Shown piece after piece: positions 11,268 through 24,346 of a DNA stretch of 32,796 bases. Every line of letters begins with the position of its first letter. The first letter of the stretch is position 1. Position numbers and translations under genes: made by a program. The DNA comes from Actinomycetes bacterium (GTDB taxonomy: Bacteria; Actinomycetota; Actinomycetes; S36-B12). The stretch lies in assembly GCA_024641635.1 (NCBI GenBank), contig JAHECS010000006.1:87968-120763 (forward strand). The letters are read 5' to 3'. The notes under the pieces are model-generated. The model saw only the letters and a program-made list of their open reading frames with translations, had not been told where the DNA came from and searched no databases.

Positions 11268-11516
11268 ATGCCGATGTTCATGGACGTCCACGTCAACATG
11301 GTCGGAGTAACTCCAGAGGCGCTGCAACAGGCGCATCAAGCCGATCTCGATATCCAGGGCGAGGAGGGCGTGGACTTCCAGCAGGCCTGGGCTGACCCCA
11401 ACACGGGCCACGTGTTCTGCCTGTCCGAGGCCCCGAGCGCTGAGGCCGTCAAGCGGATCCACGAGAGGGCCGGCCATCCCGCTGACGAGGTGCACGAGAT
11501 CACCGTCACCGCGTAG
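11268..11516 (+). CDS. DUF4242 / SCO4226-like small protein
   Basis: An 82-aa protein, MPMFMDVHVNMVGVTPEALQ through a C-terminal HEITVTA. It matches the DUF4242 pattern, a dimeric alpha/beta ferredoxin-like barrel, one member of which (SCO4226 of Streptomyces) was described as nickel-binding. Met/His-rich N terminus (MDVHVNM), WADPNTGHVFCLSEAPS in the middle, and HERAGHPADEVHEI near the end offer potential metal ligands. The frame stays open to a GTG at 11187, but the ATG at 11268 has AGAGGAG at 11256-11262 with 5-base spacing and gives the family N terminus. Function unknown. Confidence 0.8.
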   Translation: MPMFMDVHVNMVGVTPEALQQAHQADLDIQGEEGVDFQQAWADPNTGHVFCLSEAPSAEAVKRIHERAGHPADEVHEITVTA

Positions 11517-11530
11517 CCGATCACCCCTGT

Positions 11531-11584
11531 CGCCCGCCGGGTCTGAACGCCACCCCCGAGATGCGCGTTCAGACCCGACGGGCG
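11531..11584. terminator. 54-nt hairpin between DUF4242 gene and peroxidase
   Basis: Two 20-nt arms, CGCCCGCCGGGTCTGAACGC (11531-11550) and GCGTTCAGACCCGACGGGCG (11565-11584), pair at 19 of 20 positions around a 14-nt loop. It lies 15 bases after the upstream stop and only 11 bases before the peroxidase ATG. It could terminate upstream transcription; because it ends so near the next start it might also affect expression of that gene. Confidence 0.6.
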
Positions 11585-11595
11585 AAGATTTGGGC

Positions 11596-12087
11596 ATGAC
11601 GTCAGCTGAGTCCCTCTACGACCTGAGCTTTGTCGACAACCACGGCGAGACCGTGGCCCTGGCCGACTATGCCGGGCGCCCCGTCCTCATCGTCAACACC
11701 GCGAGCAGGTGCGGCTACACGCACCACTACGACGGACTCCAGCGCCTGCACGAGGTCTACGGGCCACAGGGGCTCGTCGTGCTCGGCTTCCCGTGCAACC
11801 AGTTCCTCCAGCAGGAGCCGGGGACGGACGCCGAGATCGAGGAGTTCTGCCGACTGGACTACGGGGTCACGTTCCCCCTGTCCACGAAGGTGGAGGTCAA
11901 TGGCGACGACGCCCATCCCGTCTTCTCATTCCTCAAGGAGCGCACCGGGGGCGAGGACGTGCCGTGGAACTTCGAGAAGTTCCTCGTCGAGGCTGACGGC
12001 GTCACCGTGCATCGCTACAACTACCGCATCAAGCCGGATGAGCTCACCGACGACGTCGTGGTCGCCGTCGGCGACTCGGCCGCCTGA
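11596..12087 (+). CDS. glutathione peroxidase-family thiol peroxidase
   Basis: Reduces hydroperoxides. A 163-aa protein of the bacterial Cys-type GPx family, which in actinobacteria usually uses thioredoxin rather than glutathione. The peroxidatic Cys lies in NTASRCGYT (about residues 35-43), followed by VLGFPCNQF with the second conserved Cys region (about 70-78), and the tetrad Trp-Asn in PWNFEKFLV (about 131-139). Start chosen is the ATG at 11596; a TTG two codons upstream is possible. No clear Shine-Dalgarno is seen because a strong hairpin occupies the upstream region. Convergent with the aldo/keto reductase gene, separated by 10 bases. Confidence 0.9.
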   Translation: MTSAESLYDLSFVDNHGETVALADYAGRPVLIVNTASRCGYTHHYDGLQRLHEVYGPQGLVVLGFPCNQFLQQEPGTDAEIEEFCRLDYGVTFPLSTKVEVNGDDAHPVFSFLKERTGGEDVPWNFEKFLVEADGVTVHRYNYRIKPDELTDDVVVAVGDSAA

Positions 12088-13581: not shown

Positions 13582-14844
13582 TCAGTCGGCGGCAAGGTCC
13601 CACGTGACGCCTTCGGACGTGTCCCGGACCTCGACGCCGGCTGCCGCCAGTCCGTCCCGGATGGCGTCACTCGTCGCATAGTCCTTCGCCTCGCGTACCC
13701 GACGCCTCGCGTCGAGCGCCACCTCGACGATGGGTGCGAGCGCGGCCCGTGGATCGCGCAGCCCCAGCACCGCGGAGCCGGCGAGGTCGACGATCATCGA
13801 TCGCAGGAGCCGACGCGCGACGTCGACGTCATCGCTCTGGAGCGTGTCGGCCGACCAGGCGTGGATGGCGTCCTCGAGCTCGAGACTCGCTGACATGGCT
13901 CCGTCCGCGTCCCCGTCAGCAAGGCAGGCGTCGAAGCGCGACTTCAGCTCGGCAGCGGTCGCGCGCAATGAGGTCGCGGACGCCGACTCGACGTCCGGCT
14001 CGTCAACACCGTCCTCGGCCGCAACCAGGGTCGCCACGACGTGGACCGTGTCCTCTCCGCGCAGGATGGCCGAGATGTCGGCCAGAGCGATGGACTCGCC
14101 CGCCGGGACCATCTGGCTGACGCCACGGACGCGCAGGGTCATTCCGCCGGCCCCGTGCACGGTCGCCGTTCGTTCGACCACGTCCACGACGACGGCAGTG
14201 TGCTCGTCCACTCCGATGACGCCGACTCCGCTGGGCAGCATGGACTCCATCGCCTCCAGTCGCTGCTCCCCGAGATAGCAGTAGCGGGTGTCGTGGCGCC
14301 CACCCTCGCGATTGTCGTAGTGCGGAATGACCGCCGCCTCGACGCCCACGAGCTGCCCGAGCAGGTCCAGTCCCGCGACCCAGCGCGGCTCCTCGCCGAC
14401 CTTGTAGATCTCGTATACGGGCACGGACCACGCGCCCACCGTGACTGCCGCCGCGCTGCCCATGACGATCGTGCCTCCACGGGAGACGACCTCGCCCAGC
14501 GCCGTGGGGACCGGGGTGTCGAGCCATTGGCCGAGCGCGTAGGTCGGGCTGCCCGGTCCGGCGAACACGAACGACGCCCGATGGAGCAGGGCGAGCGTTC
14601 GCTCCCGGGTGGCGACCGGCTCGTCGCGCCGCCGCCACCGGGCCACCTCGAGGGCGGTCCCGACCGACTCGCCGAAGTACTCCTGGACCTTCTCCGTGAG
14701 GTCGTCCGCGTTCGCCTGGAACCCGAAGGGCGTGTCCAGCATCGCCCGCACGCCCCCTCCCGCGTGCTCGATCAGCGAGCGGTGGACCTTCACCATGGTG
14801 GGGGCGGTCTCACCTGAGCCCATGATCACTATGCGTCCGGTCAC
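13582..14844 (-). CDS. S51-peptidase-like protein fused to CysRS-like C-terminal domain
   Basis: A 420-aa two-part protein. Residues about 1-270 resemble peptidase S51/cyanophycinase-like class I glutamine-amidotransferase folds: an N-terminal strand and GSGETAPTM, then FAGPGSPTYALGQWLDTP (about 94-111) and the elbow TIVMGSAAAVTVGAW (about 125-139) with Ser 130 in the nucleophile position. Residues about 290-420 are helical and end with REAKDYATSDAIRDGLAAAG followed by VEVRDTSEGVTWDL, very close to the end of cysteinyl-tRNA synthetases (KD.A.SD.IRD.L...G....D...G..W). It is not a synthetase: no HIGH or KMSKS motif exists. Start is the GTG at 14844 (TGRIVIMGSG); the frame is open to 14880. Substrate and role unknown. 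Confidence 0.75.
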   Translation of the reverse strand: MTGRIVIMGSGETAPTMVKVHRSLIEHAGGGVRAMLDTPFGFQANADDLTEKVQEYFGESVGTALEVARWRRRDEPVATRERTLALLHRASFVFAGPGSPTYALGQWLDTPVPTALGEVVSRGGTIVMGSAAAVTVGAWSVPVYEIYKVGEEPRWVAGLDLLGQLVGVEAAVIPHYDNREGGRHDTRYCYLGEQRLEAMESMLPSGVGVIGVDEHTAVVVDVVERTATVHGAGGMTLRVRGVSQMVPAGESIALADISAILRGEDTVHVVATLVAAEDGVDEPDVESASATSLRATAAELKSRFDACLADGDADGAMSASLELEDAIHAWSADTLQSDDVDVARRLLRSMIVDLAGSAVLGLRDPRAALAPIVEVALDARRRVREAKDYATSDAIRDGLAAAGVEVRDTSEGVTWDLAAD

Positions 14845-14886
14845 GACCCCTAGCCTTCCATGCCGGGCGCTCGGCGCCACCGGGGA

Positions 14887-18799: not shown

Positions 18800-20599
18800 T
18801 CAGAACGGGAACTCCTCGTCCGCGTCAGGACGGCCGAGCACGCGCAGCACCTCGTCCGACGCGGTTCCGGCCCATGCCTGGTCCACGTCATGCACGTCGG
18901 GGAGGAGATCGGCGGTGACCTCCTCCAATGGGCTGTACGGGCTGATCTCGCACCATTCGAACACCTCGCAGGTGCGGCACGGAGGCCGATCGCCGATCGG
19001 GTGCGTGGTGTCGAACAGCCAGGTGTCGACCCGATCCGCAAGGGACGTCCGTGCCACGAGGACGGTGAGCGGGTCGCCTGCGTCGTAGCGGATCACCTCG
19101 CCCTGCTCCGGCCCCAGCAGCTCGAGCTCCACGAGGCCGGGGAGGGCGTCCGCCCCGTCGGGGGTCCATCCGTCGGCAAGCAGGCAGATCGCCGCAGCCG
19201 CCTGGGCGTAGCGCTCGAGCAGGACGGTGCGGTCGTCAGGCAGGCCCTTGGGGCTCAACGTCTTGGTCTCGCGCAGCACCCACCGGCCCTCGGAATCCCG
19301 ATAGGCGGCGTCGGGTCGCGTGGTGAACACGACGTTCGCATCGGTGTCCCACGCGGTGACCGAGACCTCGCTGTCGACCTCCGCCGCGCCAGCCTCATCG
19401 AAGGGGCAGCAGCCGAGGTGCTGCAGCAGGTAGGGACGGTTGACGGCGTAGTCGTCCGCGGACCAGGCGAGCCCGGTATGGACCGCCGACTGCTCGTGGC
19501 CCTCCGGCAGATCCGAGCCCGAGCAGGCGACACCGCGCGCATGAGCCGCCGCCAGCCAGGCATGGACCTGGGTTCCCCTGATGAGGCTGGGACCGGCGGC
19601 ACCCGGCGTGCGCGGCAGGCCGAGATCGCGGCTGAGGTGCAACTGGCGCGGGCAGGCACGATGCGTCCACAGCGCCGATGGAGAGATGGACCGGGTGCGA
19701 GGCGAGTACCCGGTCACGCCGAGAAGCCCCGGCATCCGATCGATGCCTGAGCACACGTGCCGGATGCCGCAGCCGGCGCACGAGCCGCTCGGACGGGTCG
19801 ACCCGCCGCCCAGCAGTTCGAGCGACGACGGCACCAGGCGCGCGAAGAGGTCCTCCGCCTCGGCAGGGGTGCCGTCGAAGCGAACGTCAGACGAACGATC
19901 CAGCATGCCGATCACGCGGACGCGGACGGTCGCGGGCGTGGGCGGCTGCGTCAGGCCCTTCCGTGGCTCGAAGGGGCGCCACCACTTGTCATGATCGACG
20001 ACCGAACCCGACCCGGCGACGTGGGCGATGAGGGCCACCTCGGCCTCGCCGAGCGAGACGTTCGCGGCGCTGCGCCACCGGAGAAGGTGGGCTTCGCGCA
20101 CGGTGCCGTCACGGCTGAGGTGCAGGAGCGCCCAGGCCCAGAACTCGACACGGTCGGCGTCCGGGTCCTGCGCGACGGCGAGGTCGGCGAACACCAGGGA
20201 CTCAGGCAGCGCGCCTTCGGCACGCAGTGACTCGAGCACCTCGAGGTAGCCCACGATGGCTTGCTCGACGGGAGGCCGACTCTCCGGCGCCCACTCGTCC
20301 CAGGAGTCCTGCGCGGCACGGTCGATCGCCGCTCGTATCCGTGCGGACGGATCCTCCGGGAGCGTTGCCGCCCCACCCAGGAGCAGCACCAGCGCATCGC
20401 GGGCGAGCCCGAGCGGGAACGACCCGACGCCCTTCGGCTCCCACGGTGCCCGCGCGTCGGGGAACACATCGGGCCGAGCCTTGCGCGCCACCTGCTCCGC
20501 GCAGCCGCCCGGACGCAGGTGGGTGTTGCTGATGCGCACGAAGCCCGCGGTCGACGAGGTCGGCCACGGCGGGGTCCACGGCGGGATGGGGATGCTCAC
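18800..20599 (-). CDS. tandem Fe-S PD-(D/E)XK nuclease-like protein
   Basis: A 599-aa protein made of two related halves, each with the cysteine set of Cas4/AddB-type nucleases. Half one: Cys33 and CAGCGIRHVC (274-283). Half two: SALWTHRACPRQLHLSRDL with Cys316, then ATRP-like FTTRPDAAY with Asp430, RETKTL with Glu444 and Lys446, and CRTCEVFEWC (541-550). Both clusters are C-x2-C-x5-C. Half two keeps an apparent D...E-x-K catalytic set; in half one the equivalent strand reads VREAHLLRWR, with no E-x-K, so it is probably inactive and may bind DNA. Start is the GTG at 20599, overlapping the TGA of the upstream nuclease gene (GTGA) with GGAGG just upstream. It is the last gene of the helicase-nuclease operon. 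Assignment of half one as a nuclease fold is an inference. Confidence 0.68.
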   Translation of the reverse strand: MSIPIPPWTPPWPTSSTAGFVRISNTHLRPGGCAEQVARKARPDVFPDARAPWEPKGVGSFPLGLARDALVLLLGGAATLPEDPSARIRAAIDRAAQDSWDEWAPESRPPVEQAIVGYLEVLESLRAEGALPESLVFADLAVAQDPDADRVEFWAWALLHLSRDGTVREAHLLRWRSAANVSLGEAEVALIAHVAGSGSVVDHDKWWRPFEPRKGLTQPPTPATVRVRVIGMLDRSSDVRFDGTPAEAEDLFARLVPSSLELLGGGSTRPSGSCAGCGIRHVCSGIDRMPGLLGVTGYSPRTRSISPSALWTHRACPRQLHLSRDLGLPRTPGAAGPSLIRGTQVHAWLAAAHARGVACSGSDLPEGHEQSAVHTGLAWSADDYAVNRPYLLQHLGCCPFDEAGAAEVDSEVSVTAWDTDANVVFTTRPDAAYRDSEGRWVLRETKTLSPKGLPDDRTVLLERYAQAAAAICLLADGWTPDGADALPGLVELELLGPEQGEVIRYDAGDPLTVLVARTSLADRVDTWLFDTTHPIGDRPPCRTCEVFEWCEISPYSPLEEVTADLLPDVHDVDQAWAGTASDEVLRVLGRPDADEEFPF

Positions 20600-21507
20600 G
20601 GCACCTCCTCCGGGTCGCCCACCATGTCCCGGTCGGCTTGGCGGGACGGCCGAAGGACCAGCTCACGCACTGATTCCAGCCGGCGATGGCTGTCCGAGCT
20701 CCCGGGGACGGGCACCTTCCGGTCGGTGTAGGCGGGGCACACGCTGCGGAAGGGGCAGTGGCCACAGAGCGCGCCTCGGCGAGCCTCCCAGCGGGCACTC
20801 TCGTCGTAGGCCGTGCGCTGCACCTGTGCCGTTCCCAGGTCCCCCGCGGCCCGCGCGTGAGCGGCTGGCGGAACGGGGCGCACCAGTACCCGTGCCGGGT
20901 CCCCGAGGTACATGAGGGCGATGTCAGCTACGTCGGTACCTTCGTCCGCCAGCATCTGGGCGTACAGGAGCAGCTGCCGCCAGTAGGCAGCCGCGTACTG
21001 CGGCTTGGCGGCACCGGTCTTGTAGTCGAGGACCCGCACGCCACCCACGGCGAACTCGATCCGGTCGACCGTCCCGGCGATGTCGACACCGCCGATCGTG
21101 GCACTCACCTTGCGCTCGAGCCCGTCCGGAACGACGTCGACGGCGGTCGGGTCCTCCAACTCGAAGTACGACCGCATGGCCGTGCCAGCGCGCTCGCGCA
21201 GCTGCTCGCGGTCGATGCGCGCGTCGAGATCGGGCTCCAGCTCGGCGGCCTGCACGGCGTAGATGGACCGTGCCGCGTCAACCGTGCGATCGGCGGGATC
21301 CAGAAGAAGCAGCGCCTCCAGCACGCCGTGCACCAGTGTCCCGGCGGTGAGGACCGCATTCGGCGCGGTGCGCCACCCCTGCGCGTACTTCCACCAGTAG
21401 GCAAGGGGGCACTTGATGAAGTCGTTCACCGAGCTCGGAGACCACACGGCTGGCAGGCCAGTCGACCTGCTGTCGTCGACGACGACCTCGATCGCCTCGT
21501 CCGCCAC
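20596..21507 (-). CDS. RecB-family Fe-S exonuclease
   Basis: A 303-aa PDDEXK_1 protein. Motifs in order: WSPSSVNDFIKCPLAYWWKY (first Fe-S Cys), GTLVHGVLEALL (His of the nuclease core), IAGTVDRIE (metal Asp), VRVLDYKTG (catalytic D-x-K), YWRQLLLYAQML (QxxxY motif), and ALCGHCPFRSVCPAY with C-x2-C-x5-C. This is the full set for a RecB-type nuclease with a 4Fe-4S cluster, as in AddB and Cas4. Start: GTG at 21507 has AGGTGAGG just upstream; a GTG at 21516 is an alternative. It overlaps the next gene by GTGA and follows the unknown gene by 75 bases. Likely degrades or trims DNA opened by the operon's helicase. Confidence 0.85.
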   Translation of the reverse strand: MADEAIEVVVDDSRSTGLPAVWSPSSVNDFIKCPLAYWWKYAQGWRTAPNAVLTAGTLVHGVLEALLLLDPADRTVDAARSIYAVQAAELEPDLDARIDREQLRERAGTAMRSYFELEDPTAVDVVPDGLERKVSATIGGVDIAGTVDRIEFAVGGVRVLDYKTGAAKPQYAAAYWRQLLLYAQMLADEGTDVADIALMYLGDPARVLVRPVPPAAHARAAGDLGTAQVQRTAYDESARWEARRGALCGHCPFRSVCPAYTDRKVPVPGSSDSHRRLESVRELVLRPSRQADRDMVGDPEEVP

Positions 21508-21582
21508 TGCCCTCACCTGCCGTCGAGTGTTGCCGCGTCACCTGCCGTGACTGTAGCTGCGAGGTCCGACACCGACATGGAA

Positions 21583-22224
21583 TCAACGCTCCGCTCGGCG
21601 CGCGGCGACGACCAGCCCAGCGGACCAGCCGGGCGCCCGCCCGTGCGACGGTGGCGCGATCGAGGAGGCGTCGAGGCCTCCCATGGCCAGCAGCCACGCC
21701 ACCAGCGAGTTCGAGTTCCACATGTCTCCGGCGTCCTGCTCGTCACGACCCCACGTGGCCGTCGGGAATGCCGGCACAAGGCCGAGGACCTGCGTTGCCG
21801 GATCGGTGCCTACGGCAACGCGTCGGGCACCGCCCACCGCGAACCGGAGGTCCGGGATGACCCCCTCCTTCCACCTGCGCACCTGATAGCGGAAGTAGCG
21901 GGAGCGGCCCAGCCACCGCAGCCCGACCGGGCCTTCCCCGACCACTCCATGGTCCCCCGATCCGGATCCCCAGGCGGGCGTCATCTCGATGACGAAGCGC
22001 ACACCATCGACGCGCAGCTCGAGGGCCGCGTGGTACAGGTCCTGGGCGGGACGGCGTTGCCATCGGGCCACCAGCGCCTCGAACAGGAGCCCATTCCATC
22101 GAACGATGGGAAGGCGCGCCCCTGCCCCGAGCGGGATCCAGTACAGGTCGACCCCGTCGCTTACCGGGGTGGTGGTCTCGGCGTTGTCACTGCTGGCTGC
22201 CACGGTCCTCAGCGAACCAGTCAT
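21583..22224 (-). CDS. conserved hypothetical protein in helicase-nuclease operon
   Basis: A 213-aa protein I do not recognise as a named family. Visible features: LYHAALELRVDGVRFVIEMT (about residues 63-82) with a His followed by a strand pair, GRSRYFRYQVRRWKEG (about 107-122), and a striking late motif DMWNSNSLVAWLLAMGGL (about 166-183) ending in PPSHGRAPGWSAG. An early His on a strand and a later polar motif at a helix start resemble permuted papain-like (NlpC/P60) folds, with Asn/Ser where Cys would be; this is a weak inference. No signal peptide or membrane helix. ATG start; it lies 31 bases after the helicase-phosphoribosyltransferase gene and 75 before the RecB-like gene, on the same strand. 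Confidence 0.7.
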   Translation of the reverse strand: MTGSLRTVAASSDNAETTTPVSDGVDLYWIPLGAGARLPIVRWNGLLFEALVARWQRRPAQDLYHAALELRVDGVRFVIEMTPAWGSGSGDHGVVGEGPVGLRWLGRSRYFRYQVRRWKEGVIPDLRFAVGGARRVAVGTDPATQVLGLVPAFPTATWGRDEQDAGDMWNSNSLVAWLLAMGGLDASSIAPPSHGRAPGWSAGLVVAARRAER

Positions 22225-22255
22225 CCTCCGCGGACGGAAGGATCCTCGGCCCTGA

Positions 22256-24346
22256 TCATCCGGACGGCCGCCTGTGGATCACCAGCGGCAGGACGGAGTC
22301 GGACCCCGCTTCGCGCAGCAGCGCCCCCGCCAGCGTGGCCGTCCACCCCGTGCGCCAGGTGTCGTCGACCAGCAGGACGGCCTCGCCACTCAGGGTGGCG
22401 CCGGGAGCCAGTGCGAGCCGCGGAGCCTGGAAGTGCGCACGCGCCTTCGTCGACAGGTCCCGCGTGCTCGCCGCTCCGGTGATGACGAGGGCGTCGAGCA
22501 CGGGCAGGCGCCCGATCTCCCCGACCGCCTCGGCGAGGGATCCGATGAGGAGCGGATGCCGGGTGCTGGGCACGGGAACCACGAGGGTCGGTCGGCTCGG
22601 CCACCGCTGCTGCCATCGGCGCAGGATCGCGACGACCGCGTCCACCGCCCACCCGGGAATCGGCGCATCCGGTGCCTCGACGAGTTCCGCGGCCTCGGGC
22701 CACGCCGGGTCACTGGCGAAGGCGATGGCCCGGCCGGGCTGCATCGCCAGATCGGCCGCGATGCGGCCCGAGCGCCCCGGCAGGCCCGTGGCCCACATCT
22801 TCCGCGGCTCCAGCACCACGTCCATGCCCCGCAGGTGGGCAAGGGCCGCCGCAACACTCTCCCGCCCCGCCGCCTCAGCGAGACCCGCCGGCAGAGTGCC
22901 CGTGCAGGCCGAGCAGCGTCCGCACTCGCGCACCTGCGGATCGTCGAGAGCCTCGCGAAGGACGCTGTCCAGACAACGGGTCGACCGCGCGTAGTCCCGC
23001 ATGAGGGCGGCCTCACGGTCGCGAGCCGCCAGGAGCGCGTCGTAGCGCGGCGCGTCGTAACTCCAGCTGCGACCGGTTCCGGACCACCCGGCGCTCGTCC
23101 GCTGCACGGCCCCCTCGACGGCGAGCACCTTCAGCAGGAACTCCAGCCGGCCCTCCGCCACGCCGGTGTCGATGCTCATCCGGGGCACCTGCAGCGGCTC
23201 GGGGCTCTCGGCGAGGAGATCGAGCACCGCGTGCGCGTCCTCCTCGCGGGGGATGGTCGCGGTCGCGAAGTACCGCCACAGGTGCTCGTCCTCCGGAGTG
23301 GGGATGAGGACGACGAGCGCGGTGTCGAGGGCCCGGCCGGCGCGGCCGACCTGCTGGTAGTAGTCGACCGGGGAGCTCGGTGAGCCGACATGCACGACGA
23401 ACCCGAGGTCGGGCTTGTCATAGCCCATGCCCAATGCCGAGGTCGCGATCACGGCCTTGACCCGGTTCTGTCGCAGCTCATCCTCGACGCGCAGCCGGTC
23501 TTCCGCGTCGACTCGCCCGTGGTAGGCACGGACGTCGTGGCCACGCGACTGCAGGTAGGTCGCCATGTCATCGGCCCGCTGCGGCGTCGCCACGTAGACG
23601 ATGCCGGATCCCGGCAGGGCCGGCAGGTGCTCGTCGATCCAGGCGAAGGCCTCGACGACCCCCGTCCGCGGCAGAACCGACAGGTGCAGCGACTCTCGGG
23701 CGAGCGTGCCGCGCAGGACGAGGGTGTCGCTGCCCAGCTGATCCGCGACATCCCGCGTGACGCGGTCGTTGGCCGTCGCCGTGGTGGCGAGCACAGGCAG
23801 CTCGGGCCTCGTGGTGAGCAGGGTCGCGATGCGCCGGTAGTCGGGCCGGAAGTCGTGCCCCCATGACGAGATGCAGTGCGCCTCGTCGATGACCAGCATC
23901 CCCAGGCGCGGGAGCAGCCAGGGCAGCACCTCGTCGGCGAACCGCGGATTGGCCAGTCGCTCGGGGCTCGTGAGAAGCACGTCGACGCCGTCGTTCGCGA
24001 GATCCTGCTGGATGGCGCCCCAGTCGGCGAAGTTCGACGAGTTCAGGGTCGCGGCTCGAAGGCCCGAGCGGCCCGCAGCCTCGACCTGGTCGCGCATGAG
24101 GGCGAGCAGCGGGGACACCACCAGCGTGGGTCCGGCGCCGGCGTCGCGCAGGGCCCTTGCCGCCATCCAGTAGACCGCCGACTTGCCCCAGCCGGTGGCC
24201 TGGACGACGAGCGCACGGCGTCCCTCCACCGCCAGGGCGGCCGCGGCCGCGATCTGGTCGGGACGGGGCTCAGCACCAGGACCGGCGATCCCACGGAGGA
24301 CGTCGCGCGCGGCGATGCGGAGCTGTTCCGTCGTCGCTGCGGGCAC
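22256..24346 (-). CDS. RecQ-family helicase fused to phosphoribosyltransferase domain
   Basis: A 696-aa protein. Residues about 1-480 are a superfamily 2 helicase of RecQ type: motif 0 RPDQ, Walker A QATGWGKSAVYW (Lys 55), DEAH at 154-157 in VIDEAHCISSWGHDF, LATTATA, and YYQQVGRAGRAL. A RecQ zinc site follows: Cys458, Cys475, Cys478, Cys481 (C-x16-C-x2-C-x2-C). The C-terminal part (about 500-696) holds a type I phosphoribosyltransferase region with PRPP-binding motif AVLLVDDTWRTGWTATLAGA (about 653-672), preceded by LVVPVPSTRHPLLIGSLAEA. No HRDC domain. Start is the GTG at 24346, with GGGGAG at a 7-base spacing; the frame runs on to 24445. It leads the operon with three downstream genes. Such helicase-PRTase fusions occur in actinobacteria but the role of the second domain is not known to me. 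Confidence 0.88.
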   Translation of the reverse strand: MPAATTEQLRIAARDVLRGIAGPGAEPRPDQIAAAAALAVEGRRALVVQATGWGKSAVYWMAARALRDAGAGPTLVVSPLLALMRDQVEAAGRSGLRAATLNSSNFADWGAIQQDLANDGVDVLLTSPERLANPRFADEVLPWLLPRLGMLVIDEAHCISSWGHDFRPDYRRIATLLTTRPELPVLATTATANDRVTRDVADQLGSDTLVLRGTLARESLHLSVLPRTGVVEAFAWIDEHLPALPGSGIVYVATPQRADDMATYLQSRGHDVRAYHGRVDAEDRLRVEDELRQNRVKAVIATSALGMGYDKPDLGFVVHVGSPSSPVDYYQQVGRAGRALDTALVVLIPTPEDEHLWRYFATATIPREEDAHAVLDLLAESPEPLQVPRMSIDTGVAEGRLEFLLKVLAVEGAVQRTSAGWSGTGRSWSYDAPRYDALLAARDREAALMRDYARSTRCLDSVLREALDDPQVRECGRCSACTGTLPAGLAEAAGRESVAAALAHLRGMDVVLEPRKMWATGLPGRSGRIAADLAMQPGRAIAFASDPAWPEAAELVEAPDAPIPGWAVDAVVAILRRWQQRWPSRPTLVVPVPSTRHPLLIGSLAEAVGEIGRLPVLDALVITGAASTRDLSTKARAHFQAPRLALAPGATLSGEAVLLVDDTWRTGWTATLAGALLREAGSDSVLPLVIHRRPSG

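Follow-up and report, generated by a model that had tools for sequence, protein, structure and literature searches.

A conserved pair of Fe-S-type nuclease genes in Nanopelagicales, one of them encoding a tandem protein with an SSB-like C-terminal tip

Closest described systems

The single-stranded DNA-binding protein (SSB) recruits repair proteins through its C-terminal tip (SSB-Ct), for which a buried terminal Phe, an anchored alpha-carboxyl group, a penultimate Pro, contacts made by Asp and a poorly conserved disordered linker were described as the rules of recognition; in Escherichia coli SSB, changing the penultimate Pro weakens the binding of partners (PMC10164576). The nucleases of pPIWI-RE restriction systems have a published gene order, restriction endonuclease-DinG-pPIWI-RE (Burroughs et al. 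2013, PMC3702460), and further described relatives of the proteins considered here are AddAB/AdnAB and the Cas4 nucleases, including the Argonaute-associated Cas4 (ACE1). In this work we analyze two adjacent genes, designated C and D, of an Actinomycetes bacterium of the order Nanopelagicales (assembly GCA_024641635.1), found in a stretch of 32,796 nucleotides (nt) of contig JAHECS010000006.1 (positions 87,968 to 120,763), hereafter the window, to which all positions refer unless another locus is named. C is a single-domain RecB/Cas4-like iron-sulfur (Fe-S) nuclease of the PD-(D/E)XK fold, and D is a tandem Fe-S nuclease-like protein, the end of which shows the same pattern as the SSB tip.

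Each of the described systems is matched in part. D shares with SSB-Ct the terminal Phe, the penultimate Pro, the acidic run and the disordered linker, but its tip is placed on a nuclease and not on an OB-fold protein, and a hydrophobic residue precedes the Pro (as in DDDIPF), compared with DEPPF in the host SSBs. With the pPIWI-RE nucleases it has in common an alignment to the PADLOC model PprPDDEXK over most of the profile, and the homologue at locus L073 stands within a pPIWI-RE triad; in contrast, D is paired with C, the tip is absent from the homologues at L073 and L159, and the pPIWI-RE protein itself (PF13032) was detected in none of 99 genomes of the order, including the genome under study (positive control 2/2). 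Beside D in the window there is no DinG-type helicase gene, its neighbours being C and a PPOX oxidoreductase gene; the neighbours at other C-D loci were clustered rather than scanned individually for DinG. C and the second domain of D resemble AddAB/AdnAB in the AdnA-type nuclease fold, the Cys pattern and the proposed two-subunit composition, and differ from them in lacking a helicase domain: no superfamily 1 helicase domain was found in C or D, C matching just the nuclease parts of the AddA, AddB and RecC models, and the helicase gene (A) that precedes the pair in the window does not stand beside C-D in relatives. The likeness to Cas4 and ACE1 extends to fold, Cys pattern and catalytic residues, although C remains under the NCBIfam cut-off for Cas4 (47.3 vs 65 bits) and D is tandem. 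Searches of the literature on SSB-Ct mimics in other proteins and on pPIWI-RE nucleases gave no SSB-tipped nuclease pair in titles or abstracts, and no paper was found with "PprPDDEXK" as a word.

The SSB-like tip of D

Beyond its last Cys, D continues for 34-69 amino acids, which are variable in length and sequence and carry a net charge of -5 to -14 (31 D proteins). In the window protein this part comprises residues 551-599 (18803..18949, minus strand), with disorder predicted from residue 560; residues 560-599 have a predicted local distance difference test score (pLDDT) under 50 and no confident structure. The last eight residues, DADEEFPF-COOH (18803..18826, minus strand), form the tip. 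All 34 complete C-linked D proteins possess a terminal Phe, preceded by Pro in 32 of them (-PF) and by Ala in two (-AF, both from genus g25); the penultimate Pro or Ala follows a hydrophobic residue, and at least two acids occur among the last eight positions. The ends are mostly of the form [DE][IVLF]PF, exemplified by DEEFPF and DDDIPF, and conservation of the tail peaks at the final residues and fades upstream. This count leaves aside L250, where the contig stops inside D, and the homologues L073, L159, L251 and L252, which are not C-linked (for L159 the flank examined was 1.5 kb).

When the 319 genes called at 20 D loci were examined, a PF end together with at least three D/E in the last eight residues was met in 16, all of them D, and the same 16 were recovered among 2312 mechanically derived open reading frames, many of which are spurious. 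The SSBs of the hosts end with EPPF in 30/30 best loci read and with DEPPF in 28/30 (57 genomes had a match). Judged by its residues, the end of D fits the SSB-tip rules, and the tip may bind the partners of SSB.

Conservation and linkage of C and D

Gene C (21516..20596, minus strand, 306 amino acids) and gene D (20599..18800, minus strand, 599 amino acids) share the sequence GTGA at the stop of the former and the start of the latter. D was found in 35 of 166 genomes of the order, belonging to 9 of 40 genera, and in 35/35 it is directly preceded by C on the same strand, C being in two pieces in L247 and shortened by the contig end in L143 and L146. The D loci were read for all 35 genomes, 16 of them being tied to genomes by contig coordinates or separate retrieval; 8 of the 20 loci of one set proved to be the same contigs as the order loci and were counted once. 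Taking in each case the start closest to a 4-nt overlap, 23 of 31 distinct C-D junctions are 4-nt stop-start overlaps, and all of them fall between -10 and +3 nt. C and D are thus a real conserved pair. In four of the six same-genus relatives (L055, L138, L139, L141) C-D looks like a stand-alone transcription unit, because the next gene upstream of C runs on the opposite strand; in the other two, at most 1 kb of upstream sequence is available.

C alone was rejected as a marker for want of specificity: matches to it occur in 96 of 99 genomes, mostly at 27-37% identity, and we read them as a widespread RecB-family paralogue. Since C-like matches are nearly ubiquitous, C was counted only next to D. 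A C-like gene of 285-295 amino acids was observed in 13 genomes of the small-genome genus g17 (loci L106-L118), where neither the protein search in these genomes nor the profile at their loci revealed D. At L066 a truncated second copy of C (11375-11953) lies immediately upstream of the full-length one.

Predicted structure and active sites

C matches PDDEXK_1 with an E-value of 7.6e-32, and in 24 aligned homologues H63, D151, D164-Y-K166, Q181 and the cysteines C36, C251, C254 and C260 are invariant. Its structural model has a mean pLDDT of 92.8, with the AdnA nuclease domain and ACE1 as the best matches in the PDB. According to these residues and the model, C is an intact nuclease of the Cas4/AdnA-like Fe-S type, predicted to be active.

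The model of D has a mean pLDDT of 88.2 and a predicted template modelling score (pTM) of 0.86, and 30 D sequences have in common two complete 1+3 Cys sets, C33/C274/C277/C283 and C316/C541/C544/C550. Domain 2 (residues 297-553; 18941..19711, minus strand) contains D430, E444-x-K446, Q466 and the nearly invariant H346, and the PDDEXK_1 match (E-value 3.1e-17) covers residues 304-551. Compared with C by hhalign, it scored 96%; the model of residues 301-553 matched the AdnA nuclease domain with Z 14.0, the structure-match alignment rows for D covering mainly residues 272-558, and a search of solved structures using the D profile returned one weak Cas4 match. C and domain 2 of D both have the H, D, (D/E)xK and Q residues of RecB/Cas4-like nucleases together with their 1+3 Cys pattern, and domain 2 is likewise predicted active.

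Besides its four invariant Cys, domain 1 (residues 1-296; 19712..20599, minus strand) keeps E152 and R168 without exception and E169 nearly so. It is probably non-catalytic, because in the C-linked rows the Lys of the ExK motif is replaced by His or Arg and no matching Asp is seen. By hhalign its profile aligns weakly, scoring 34% with domain 2 (114 columns) and 50% with C (19 columns, all of them around the Cys). Apparently, this is an inactive Fe-S nuclease-like or zinc domain: at the corresponding position of pPIWI-RE nucleases a zinc ribbon has been described along with a helical domain (Burroughs et al., PMC3702460), so that a zinc site may be present in place of a second Fe-S cluster.

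An earlier note on the window, made from its letters alone, had pointed to three C-x2-C-x5-C clusters and called C a RecB-like Fe-S nuclease, both of which hold (C251/C254/C260 in C, C274/C277/C283 and C541/C544/C550 in D). Its description of D as a double Fe-S nuclease-like protein is likewise confirmed, the view of domain 1 as a nuclease relic being weakly supported by the profile alignments. The SSB-like tip of D had escaped the note. The end-processing logic of the AddAB or Cas4 type that it proposed suits C and D, a conserved pair with AdnA and the Argonaute-associated Cas4 as best solved matches, and does not extend to the two genes upstream of them, A and B.

Relatives and genomic setting

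The PADLOC model PprPDDEXK recognizes D with 177 bits (E-value 2e-52) and four further C-linked D proteins with 177-200 bits. A profile search of 396 genomes of the phylum, in which at most three candidates per genome were scored, gave 55 matches, exceeding 300 bits only in the genome under study, G259 and G344; the remaining 52 are short matches to nuclease motifs, none of them scoring above 33.5 bits. An initial protein search had found D in 3 of 198 genomes of the phylum, one match being weak. G259 and G344 belong to the same class as the order, and both have a PIWI family protein on the contig of the D homologue, which lacks the tip. At L073 (G259) the genes follow the published restriction endonuclease-DinG-pPIWI-RE order, and the homologue retains all eight D Cys and the positions D430, E444 and K446. 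These profile matches place D in the family of nucleases that serve pPIWI-RE restriction systems.

Two further homologues are carried by plasmids of Rhodococcus antarcticus (L251) and Streptomyces albidoflavus (L252), neither having C beside it; the former ends with EDEPPPF, resembling the actinobacterial SSB version, and the latter has no tip. The tip, general in the Nanopelagicales pair, thus occurs at least once more, and imitation of the SSB tip may be a solution that recurs among nucleases of this family. The D-family nuclease, a hypothetical protein of about 265 amino acids and an ImmA/IrrE metallopeptidase recur together on both plasmids (L251 8806-12377; L252 8728-12430). Phage records contained no relative, and in a scan of viral contigs none of 60 pattern hits proved to be one.

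In a tree of 35 D rows made by a quick method (33 rows C-linked; L066 and L248 left out), each genus of the order with at least two rows forms one side of a branch (6/6), and the label set requires the minimum possible number of changes. In six loci of a small-genome genus C-D lies between genes read by eye as pntAB-like and as cell-division or cell-wall genes, and two other genera have a different set of neighbours, identified in the same manner, in common at five loci. The genus grouping on the tree and the shared neighbours in three genera therefore make C-D look vertically inherited with losses. D occurs in only 9/40 genera and in 7 of the 14 genomes of the genus under study, and is therefore dispensable, and the pair is retained in genomes of about 0.8-1.3 Mb (incomplete assemblies). 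Taken together, C-D has the look of a chromosomal module that is stably kept, can be dispensed with and was lost repeatedly, and not that of a typical defence island.

Proposed function and alternative explanations

We propose that C-D is a two-subunit nuclease for the processing of DNA, apparently chromosomal and for the most part inherited vertically, which docks on SSB-interacting repair proteins via a mimic of SSB-Ct; to this proposal, which builds on the observed pairing and conservation of the tip, the residues and the predicted folds, we give about equal chances of being right or wrong. C and D would be made together from overlapping genes, and their complex would bring two active sites to DNA ends or flaps, with domain 1 of D possibly serving as a DNA-gripping scaffold. 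Such a complex would have no motor of its own. The tip of D would dock into the pocket where RecG, RecO and other repair proteins normally hold SSB. RecQ and PriA are also among the repair proteins that hold SSB. The nuclease would in this way be recruited to repair helicases or mediators at single-stranded DNA, or would compete with SSB for them, and C-D would work like AddAB/AdnAB with a motor or mediator borrowed through the SSB network. Most likely the pair serves to repair or recombine chromosomal DNA, and D goes back to a defence-related ancestor. The fuller picture of C-D as a new motorless two-subunit DNA-end nuclease within the SSB network, a domesticated pPIWI-RE-type nuclease to whose tandem Fe-S protein the partners hand DNA, is put forward more tentatively, its chances being somewhat below even. 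If the proposal is true, a nuclease with an SSB-type tip enters the SSB network from the other end, competing with SSB or standing in for it instead of being its client, and the nuclease family of a predicted RNA-guided restriction system becomes linked to apparent chromosomal DNA processing, including that of bacteria whose genomes measure about 1.0-1.3 Mb.

Several facts weigh against this proposal. All the loci are metagenome-assembled contigs, and the word "chromosomal" consequently rests on the neighbours; the distribution is confined to the minority of genera and half of the own-genus genomes given above; and relatives of D do occur on plasmids. As for the tip, the two D proteins of genus g25 lack the Pro, the prevailing [DE][IVLF]PF of D departs from the DEPPF of host SSBs, and a second SSB-like gene of the genome under study has no tip at all. 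Neither is the tip exclusive to C-D, since the Rhodococcus plasmid homologue possesses it without C, and three other homologues beside which no C was seen have none. The view of domain 1 as a nuclease relic, finally, has weak support from its alignments.

Instead of docking on partners of SSB, the acidic tail of D could act within the molecule as a DNA mimic, covering the nuclease or DNA-binding face and keeping the enzyme inhibited until DNA displaces it. Such a mechanism accords with the strong acidity and predicted disorder of the linker and has a parallel in SSB, whose tip is able to bind its own OB domain (PMC10164576); however, an effect of charge needs no invariant terminal Pro-Phe-COOH, and the conservation is strongest precisely at the last residues, which leaves autoinhibition without an SSB partner an unlikely explanation. 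We consider even less probable, indeed quite improbable, that the end of D is an unrelated short linear motif, concerned for instance with the sliding clamp or with protein turnover. Other motifs combining hydrophobic and acidic residues exist, but the combination present in D (Phe with its carboxylate at the very end, Pro, a hydrophobic residue, acids) matches SSB-Ct closely, and EDEPPPF of the plasmid homologue reproduces an actinobacterial-like variant.

A different possibility concerns the pair as a whole, which might be an anti-phage or anti-plasmid restriction module, that is, a reduced descendant of pPIWI-RE systems with C in place of the PIWI and DinG subunits. The PprPDDEXK scores of the five C-linked members, the position of the L073 homologue in the restriction endonuclease-DinG-pPIWI-RE order, as described by Burroughs et al. 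(PMC3702460), and the ImmA/IrrE gene near the two plasmid homologues are in line with this. Against it stand the adherence of C-D to genus groupings, the shared neighbours in the three genera examined, the lack of a pPIWI-RE partner among the 99 order genomes and the retention of the pair in small genomes; we therefore assign this reading a small probability, similar to that of autoinhibition.

The neighbouring genes A and B

Upstream of C, on the same minus strand, are gene A (24346..22256, 696 amino acids counted from that start) and gene B (22224..21583, 213 amino acids), the order of transcription being A, B, C, D; both are neighbours outside the conserved unit. A has Pfam matches to DEAD and Helicase_C as well as a RecQ-family match, and the PADLOC PsyrT model spans its residues 12-692 with 645 bits, the separate Pfam match to a phosphoribosyltransferase (PRTase) domain being under the cut-off (13.1 vs 26.3 bits). 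It is thus alike over its full length to the RqlH/PsyrT type, a RecQ-like helicase with a C-terminal PRTase. In the absence of RqlI, the PRTase domain of RqlH was reported to have a genotoxic effect in E. coli, and rqlH to be frequently present without rqlI, above all in Gram-positive organisms (PMC4670107). A differs from the described systems in that it merely adjoins C-D and that no DprA-like antitoxin (RqlI/PsyrA) was recognized beside it, one flank being B and the other a LuxR-type response regulator gene. B has no family match in Pfam, NCBIfam or PADLOC; its alignment shows conserved G-R-D-E and N-S-N-S segments.

The earlier note had regarded A, B, C and D as one apparent operon for a helicase and nucleases, in a combination matching no named system. 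The arrangement on which this was based is present in the sequence, namely four genes on one strand, a gap of 31 nt between A and B and the C-D overlap. Its B-C gap of 75 nt fits a C start three codons further on, the distance to the first C start being 66 nt. The identification of A as a RecQ-type helicase with a PRTase and of B as an unknown protein was also correct, and A does correspond to a named system, PsyrT of the RqlH type. No terminator-like site separates A, B and C, both hits obtained being inside gene C, and a promoter scan found none; along with the shared strand, the short gaps and the overlap, the missing terminators favour an operon.

The neighbourhoods speak against it. Neither A nor B was met around the other 34 C-D pairs in the sequence examined (26 of them with 2.2 kb or more available ahead of C, 8 with less), and four of the six same-genus relatives, having at least 5.7 kb of upstream sequence, are devoid of both. 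The ten other loci of B include no A, C or D, and tblastn searches using the proteins of the window detected no B, C or D at 14 other loci (3 to 14 kb) that carry A or a gene like it. Among the 99 order genomes B occurs in 11 (ten besides the genome under study; two via fragments), D in 19 and A in 14, A being counted at 100 bits or more, with G049 and G084 (weaker or partial matches) left out. All three are found together only in the window genome, and with that genome subtracted the observed versus expected co-occurrence is 2 vs 2.4 for A and D, 2 vs 1.3 for A and B and 0 vs 1.8 for B and D, which is chance level. For A and B the observation that the earlier note had itself named as refuting its reading, rare co-occurrence of the four genes, has thus been made. 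The four-gene operon is hereby ruled out as a conserved unit, and we see hardly any probability left for a single helicase-nuclease operon. The novelty proposed for the four genes dissolves, and what is left is a smaller and odder result, a conserved tandem Fe-S nuclease ending in an SSB-like tip. As to whether the set is inherited vertically, as a repair module, or lies patchily in defence islands, C-D looks vertical with losses within the order, although its relatives outside the order are in defence or plasmid settings.

At one of the 14 loci with A-like genes (L133 2737-5165, genome G061), a fragment of an RqlH-like gene stands beside that of a protein of 560 amino acids, which the C profile matches at 57 bits. 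In the same-genus relatives L139 (11824-16031) and L247 (3506-6466), D is closely followed by a large gene of an AAA_27/SMC-like ATPase, which runs on the other strand; the start of this gene is overlapped in L139 by a gene for a metallophosphoesterase, giving an SbcCD-like pair. Elsewhere in the window, positions 13582-14880 encode a protein in which a peptidase S51-like region (under the Pfam cut-off) is joined to the anticodon-binding domain of cysteinyl-tRNA ligase (CysS_C), and homologues of this protein occur near C-D in L137, L138, L139 and L247.

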